Shown here: positions 21,184 through 21,381 of the stretch, in pieces
Layout: every line of letters begins with the position of its first letter
Position numbering within the stretch: position 1 is the first letter of the stretch
NCBI GenBank assembly: GCA_030655275.1
Contig: JAURVW010000925.1
Span: 1 to 32,375, forward strand
Length of the DNA stretch: 32,375 nt
Direction of reading: 5' to 3'
DNA from: Solirubrobacteraceae bacterium
GTDB lineage: Bacteria; Actinomycetota; Thermoleophilia; Solirubrobacterales; Solirubrobacteraceae
Translations under genes and position numbers: made by a program
Notes under the pieces: generated by a model
Told to the model about the DNA's origin: nothing
Databases searched by the model: none
Seen by the model: the letters and a program-made list of their open reading frames with translations, nothing else

Positions 21184-21381
21184 ATGCGCTCCAACGCCCG
21201 CCTCTCCTCCCTCGCTGCCATCGCCGTCATCACGGCCGCCGGCGCGGCCGTGCCGTCGGTCGCGAGTGCCTCGTCGTCCGCGCCGGCCGCGCAGCTCTCC
21301 CAGGCCCAGCCGCAGCCCAGCCCGATCGGTCTGCTGCTGCCGGCCGTGCAGAAGGTGCGCGAAGCCGCCTGCCGCTCGTAG
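21184..21381 (+). CDS. Small secreted peptide with DUF1559-like motif
   Basis: A 65-residue exported peptide. Residues 1-29 are a clear Sec signal ([22 protein letters not shown]..., cleavage near ASA). After a Ser/Ala/Pro/Gln linker comes [15 protein letters not shown] (48-62) and a single Cys63 in the ending CRS. The 15-residue motif is, from memory, the same as one found directly after the prepilin-like helix of the many planctomycete DUF1559 proteins (LLLPAVQxxREAAxR). Here there is no prepilin helix. Function unknown; a secreted amphipathic helix of about 15 residues is the main visible element. The ATG at 21184 is followed by good coding character. It is convergent with the threonine-aldolase-like gene, 16 bp away. 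Confidence 0.65.
   Translation: [65 protein letters not shown]

Follow-up and report, generated by a model that had tools for sequence, protein, structure and literature searches.

A short open reading frame encoding a putative exported peptide with a helix motif of DUF1559 pilins

The stretch of DNA that was analyzed (the window, 32,375 nucleotides) is one contig of a 5.1-Mb assembly, which comprises 1491 contigs. The feature under study is a short open reading frame (ORF) on the plus strand; a convergent gene has its end 16 bases beyond that of the ORF. The following features were recognized in this region:

19465-21159, minus strand: ORF of 564 codons upstream of the peptide ORF, no Pfam match
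21184-21381, plus strand: ORF of 65 amino acids and stop codon, putative exported peptide with a pilin-type C-terminal motif (from the translation; GC3 0.94; single copy in the genome)
21184-21270, plus strand: predicted signal peptide, residues 1-29 (by eye: basic n-region, hydrophobic core, A-S-A cleavage site)
21271-21324, plus strand: S/A/Q/P-rich linker of the mature peptide, residues 30-47 (from the sequence; predicted to be disordered)
21325-21369, plus strand: pilin-type 15-residue motif, residues 48-62 (from identity to DUF1559 pilin residues 17-31)
21370-21378, plus strand: tail C-R-S, residues 63-65, with the sole Cys (from the sequence; within the family this end varies)
21398-22483, minus strand: gene of the beta-eliminating-lyase/threonine-aldolase type, convergent to the peptide ORF

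For the long minus-strand ORF at 19465-21159 no family match was found, and it had no homologue among 20 relatives.

The first-pass annotation had placed a gene for a 65-residue peptide at this position, and both the coordinates and the translation were found to be correct. It had also described a clear signal peptide, and the N-terminus is indeed of the typical Sec type, as judged by eye from the sequence and without a predictor. Once the signal peptide is removed, the mature peptide would have about 36 residues, and the linker is followed by a C-terminal stretch of 18 residues that includes the 15-residue motif. An AlphaFold2 model, which was based on the single sequence and has low confidence (mean pLDDT 58.6), contains helices at residues 3-22 and 47-63, and the pLDDT is below 50 over much of the length of the linker. 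The motif helix is amphipathic, its first third is hydrophobic, and its hydrophobic moment is moderate (about 0.4-0.5). The GC3 value of the ORF is similar to those of the neighboring genes and differs from the background of 0.72 (P = 7e-6). A Shine-Dalgarno-like sequence, a sigma-70-like promoter and a terminator were looked for at the ORF, and none was seen, and the folding of the leader RNA was no better than that of shuffled sequences. Searches with the peptide against Pfam and NCBIfam yielded no significant match. Judged by its layout, frame and coding signature, the ORF would be a functional gene.

The first-pass annotation had taken the C-terminal residues to be identical to a motif behind the prepilin helix of planctomycete DUF1559 proteins, and this could be substantiated. 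All 15 residues (15/15) are identical in planctomycete DUF1559 pilins, where they occupy approximately the residues 17-31, counted from the prepilin Phe, and the shared stretch surrounds the Pro22 kink familiar from type IV pilins. The exact 15-mer followed by A was present in 55 of 97 prepilin-type matches, which come from loci found with the motif itself, so that the sample is biased towards the motif; most of the others deviate by one or two residues. A motif scan of genome contigs revealed at least 78 loci, most of them prepilin-type and mainly planctomycete. DUF1559 pilins are reported to be numerous in planctomycetes, and to our knowledge their function has not been established. The prepilin helix and the DUF1559 body had been described as lacking from the window peptide. 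Indeed, no match was obtained to the prepilin cleavage/methylation motif with the hydrophobic helix (PF07963, TIGR02532), to the globular body (PF07596) or to the H-X9-DG C-terminal domain (TIGR04294). In a true DUF1559 member (L045) PF07963/TIGR02532, PF07596 (138.6 bits) and TIGR04294 were all present, and TIGR04294 was also present in L055.

Searches in other genomes revealed how rare the motif is. Among 299 genomes of the window's class it was present in 1, which is the window's own, and in 0 of the 298 others. A motif profile had no match in 346 other genomes of the window's phylum, and in 349 sampled genomes of Pseudomonadota there was none in the 348 besides the seed genome. When the class and the family were scanned with backward control patterns, the number of matches was 0. 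A homology search with the whole peptide in 60 relatives returned noise only, and the flanking genes of the ORF were sought in congeners and not found in synteny. Plasmid and phage collections contained no such peptide, and a single DUF1559 protein and a weak match to an integrase were all that they yielded; in viral contigs the loci that were read out were all prepilin-type, and further scans mostly gave the same contigs. A misbinned contig was also considered. The tetranucleotide profile, which is a weak test, showed roughly equal correlations with other contigs of the bin (0.82-0.93) and with congeners (0.78-0.92), and thus gave no sign of misbinning.

Homologues that keep the frame and the motif were looked for; there were none in the window's class, and they were found in Sphingopyxis, which belongs to another phylum. 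The first example (L039) is an ORF of 61 residues that consists of a signal peptide, a linker, a motif stretch of 18 residues and the stop codon, and a peptide of this type lies at the same place in a second Sphingopyxis species. Matches were obtained in 43 of 80 genomes (E <= 0.01), one of them marginal and one apparently frame-shifted; nearly all are full-length, have about 61 amino acids and lie at one syntenic locus. In all 30 loci examined (30/30) the peptide gene is situated downstream of TauE-type permease and DUF188-type genes, both named from sequence resemblance and not from profile searches, and the genes further downstream differ between species. Tandem copies of the peptide gene occur in two genomes. 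In one of these two (G533) the motif of the second copy has decayed (LIGILLPAPQVPRDSGNR), and in another genome the peptide gene has an apparent frame shift; L191 and L192 are the loci of these two cases.

The sequences from the 30 loci were used to compare the parts of the peptide. The pN/pS ratio was 0.032 for the motif, 0.34 for the signal peptide, 0.55 for the linker and 0.85 for the tail. Synonymous change was alike in the signal peptide, linker and motif (0.30-0.36), showing that the motif is not merely young. In 16 motif columns the only variations are Ile to Val and Glu to Asp. Strong purifying selection thus acts on exactly the motif helix in Sphingopyxis, and a function of the helix in these peptides is well supported. 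Judged by the signal peptides, export is likewise well supported there, and the gene is a stand-alone, syntenic and apparently regulated unit.

The upstream regions were informative about this regulation. The sequence GTGA-N6-TCAC was present in 30 of 30 Sphingopyxis regions, 22 nt before a CATAAG-like box; in one of the 30 the spacing is 21 nt, as the matched box is shifted by one base. With this box as the -10 element, the site would be centered near -41.5, which is the class II arrangement of CRP-type activators. From this conservation, a class II CRP-type promoter with a putative start is predicted. An EcfG-type promoter was sought upstream of the Sphingopyxis gene and not found. The loci also bear on the possibility that the peptide is a cis-acting arrest or leader peptide, whose conserved C-terminus stalls the ribosome and thereby regulates a downstream gene. 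The layout would fit, as secretion-monitoring arrest peptides have a signal peptide and a conserved C-terminus. However, a conserved regulated downstream gene is absent in Sphingopyxis, there is a GC-rich inverted repeat behind the stop codon of the Sphingopyxis gene, the motif is translated through in pilins and in large carriers, and the neighbor downstream of the window ORF is convergent. Because the downstream genes vary among the Sphingopyxis species, this candidate was rejected, and it is regarded as highly improbable.

The window peptide has the layout of the Sphingopyxis type, i.e., a Sec signal peptide, a linker of about 18 residues, a motif near the C-terminus and a mature length of about 36-38 amino acids. 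Its linker corresponds in position and length to the fast-evolving Sphingopyxis linker (QSAQPAQGGMTVTSNPVQ), but the two cannot be aligned and only their composition is similar; no alignable sequence exists beyond the motif. The region upstream of the ORF showed no CRP-type site with the 22-nt spacing, and the neighbors of the ORF are not TauE-DUF188. From layout and motif, the window gene would belong to the Sphingopyxis small-peptide family. Alternatively, the ORF could be a recently captured, non-functional scrap of pilin DNA that happened to be joined to a frame resembling a signal peptide. This would fit its status as a singleton in the class and phylum sample and the absence of a recognizable promoter or ribosome-binding site, but the frame is intact, GC3 is host-like (0.94), the signal peptide is in frame, and both layout and mature length match the conserved Sphingopyxis peptides. 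A chance scrap is thus considered unlikely.

The Sphingopyxis tails were then compared with DUF1559 sequences. The tails AAARMK, AANRM and AASRCRC correspond to AAARMKC, AANRMSC and AASRCKC in DUF1559 proteins, and the peptides that end with AAARMK share 20 identical residues with some pilins. As the tails run on as DUF1559 sequence, a captured pilin fragment is favored over convergence. The first-pass annotation had left three options, namely a captured fragment, convergence on an amphipathic helix, and an unrecognized secreted-peptide family. The first and the third both gained support from the Sphingopyxis family and its pilin-like tails, whereas convergence was rejected because of the length of the motif, its extension into pilin tails and the chance expectation, which is 0.003 copies of the 13-residue core in a 257-Gb genome collection by a crude independent-residue estimate. 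A stand-alone motif that ends with x-Arg-stop was not found in 348 planctomycete genomes with a strict pattern, which does not cover other tails such as the one of the window peptide; thus there is no evidence that the peptides come ready-made from planctomycetes. The tails also bear on the single Cys, which indeed lies 3 residues from the C-terminus and had been taken to suggest dimerization or anchoring. This proposal is unsupported, because most members of the family have no Cys; only a few Sphingopyxis peptides (those with AASRCRC) have Cys in the tail.

The motif is not confined to pilins and small peptides. At least 11 loci outside the prepilins contain it, and nearly all of their products are apparently exported. 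The carriers are L023 (three copies), L025, L028, L030, L039, L040, L074, L077, L075 (two copies) and L086 (two copies), and L064 has a weaker form of the motif. Signal-peptide-like starts were seen in L028, L030, L039, L077 and L086 and LEPR-like starts in L074 and L075; L025 is a lipoprotein, L040 has a GG leader, and L023 is Hcp-like. The taxa given in the record titles are Acidobacteriota, Bacteroidota, Chloroflexota, Alpha- and Gammaproteobacteria, Desulfuromonas and planctomycetes; several carriers come from metagenome bins, in which the taxon could be misassigned. Each of the eight non-planctomycete genomes with non-pilin carriers has one motif locus.

Some of these carriers have further features. 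In Algoriphagus, two lipoprotein paralogues are arranged in tandem (L025, 2266-4747), one with the full motif, while the other keeps 11 residues and then diverges. A planctomycete ORF of 1199 residues (L074, 736-4335) contains several degenerate motif copies inside glycine/aspartate-rich repeats. Starts or ends resembling Hcp were found in L030, L178, L023 and L086 (PF05638-like, mostly under the cut-off; for L030 the Pfam E value is 5.5e-4, also under the cut-off). L030 (2671-3324) and L178 are Hcp-like exported proteins of Sphingomonadales with an internal pilin motif, and L178 has a dockerin-like stretch (DGRTDAGDYTVWRD) in addition. The carriers at L028 (1671-4226) and L023 (1237-3528) have Hcp-like pieces, stem from different phyla and adjoin homologous class I methyltransferases, which are 26% identical over 218 residues (E 2e-15).

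This distribution could mean that the 15-mer is a short linear docking motif for a widespread envelope partner, which would be why pilins, Hcp-like exported proteins, lipoproteins and stand-alone peptides have it in common. The window peptide would then represent a carrier of minimal size. In addition to the number of apparently exported carriers, this would explain why the codons of the copies repeated in L023 and in L086 differ although the residues are the same, and why the homologous pair L030 and L178 is identical in 11 of 11 motif positions versus 64 of 157 elsewhere. On the other hand, the great rarity outside planctomycetes (0/346 and 0/348 sampled genomes) would be odd for a widespread partner, and no shared neighbor gene was found, so that this reading is rather doubtful. 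A related proposal, which is put forward tentatively, treats the 15-mer as a portable extracytoplasmic motif that was captured from pilins and thereby reached free secreted peptides, Hcp-like proteins, lipoproteins and leader peptides in several phyla. A single conserved partner in the envelope would recognize it, and the window peptide would be among its minimal carriers.

The GG-leader carrier touches another possibility. Locus L040 (744-3093), on a contig of a gammaproteobacterial bin, encodes three GG-leader peptides (LTDEQLAEIKGG type) with C-terminal ends that resemble conserved motifs of other families. We take one of the ends (QKVKIYICPSRAT) to be DUF1559-like and one (RFHDNGIKVYVDVVYNHTY) to be alpha-amylase-like; the C-terminal end of the third peptide is a stretch of 18 residues. 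The peptide of the window might be a secreted signal or a bacteriocin-like peptide, the released helix of which acts on other cells, e.g., planctomycetes or bacteria with the same pilin segment. Exported pro-peptides likewise combine a signal peptide with a conserved C-terminus, the L040 motif directly follows the GG leader like a bacteriocin core, and the moderate amphipathicity noted above would also be compatible. Yet such peptides usually diversify while this motif is nearly invariant, genes for immunity, transport or a receptor were not consistently linked at the 30 Sphingopyxis loci, and neither the net charge nor the length is conspicuous for a membrane-lytic peptide. A role of this kind is therefore rated as quite improbable.

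The explanation that we prefer, and to which about an even chance is assigned, is that the window ORF encodes a Sec-exported, pilin-derived peptide of the Sphingopyxis-type family, which was captured horizontally and docks outside the cytoplasmic membrane. Sec export and removal of the signal peptide would yield the mature peptide of about 36 residues, i.e., a flexible linker and an amphipathic helix of 15-18 residues. The helix would be derived from a DUF1559-type pilin, more precisely from about residues 17-33 of its N-terminal helix with the Pro22 kink, and the membrane-spanning start, Glu5 and the globular body of the pilin would be left out. Horizontal capture would be the most likely way in which the window gene was gained. 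The free peptide would lie on the outer surface of the cytoplasmic membrane, where it would act and where the helix would dock on a conserved partner. The likeliest candidate would be the helix bundle of pilins or pseudopilins or their assembly platform, which the peptide might modulate or cap; the bundle ranks first, as this is where the segment is situated in the parent family. The location at the membrane surface, the docking and the identity of the partner are all conditional on this reasoning. The computed analyses revealed no link of the peptides to pili, and it speaks against a pilus connection that the same motif is present in exported proteins without an obvious one (L025, L030, L040 and L077).

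Taken together, a 15-residue pilin segment recurs under extreme purifying selection in free secreted peptides and in unrelated exported proteins, which suggests that the segment has an activity of its own outside the cytoplasmic membrane. Finding the partner of the Sphingopyxis peptide would make it possible to study, in a simple and cultivable system, what the pilin segment binds. For the small peptides, no describing match was present in Pfam, NCBIfam or PDB sequences and no paper with LLPAVQ in the literature searched. They thus look like a small secreted-peptide family without a named counterpart in these sources, for which the above mechanism is proposed.

Three known groups of proteins can be compared with the window peptide. 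The 61-residue peptides of Sphingopyxis (L145-L174 and L180-L192) share with it the signal peptide, a linker of 18-20 residues, the motif, a short tail and a mature length of 36-38 residues; they differ in that the linker is unrelated, that they belong to another phylum, and that the CRP-like promoter and the fixed synteny are confined to Sphingopyxis. The Hcp-like carriers (L030, L178, L086 and L023) are also exported, and in L030 and L178 the 12 motif residues are the best-conserved stretch, but these proteins are longer, have Hcp-like ends and contain the motif internally and not at the C-terminus. The DUF1559 pilins (PF07596, with the N-terminus PF07963/TIGR02532 and the C-terminus TIGR04294) have the complete motif in common with the window peptide. 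In contrast to these pilins, the window peptide has no prepilin leader, FTLIEL helix, Glu5, globular body or H-X9-DG end, and instead it has a Sec signal peptide and terminates just past the motif.
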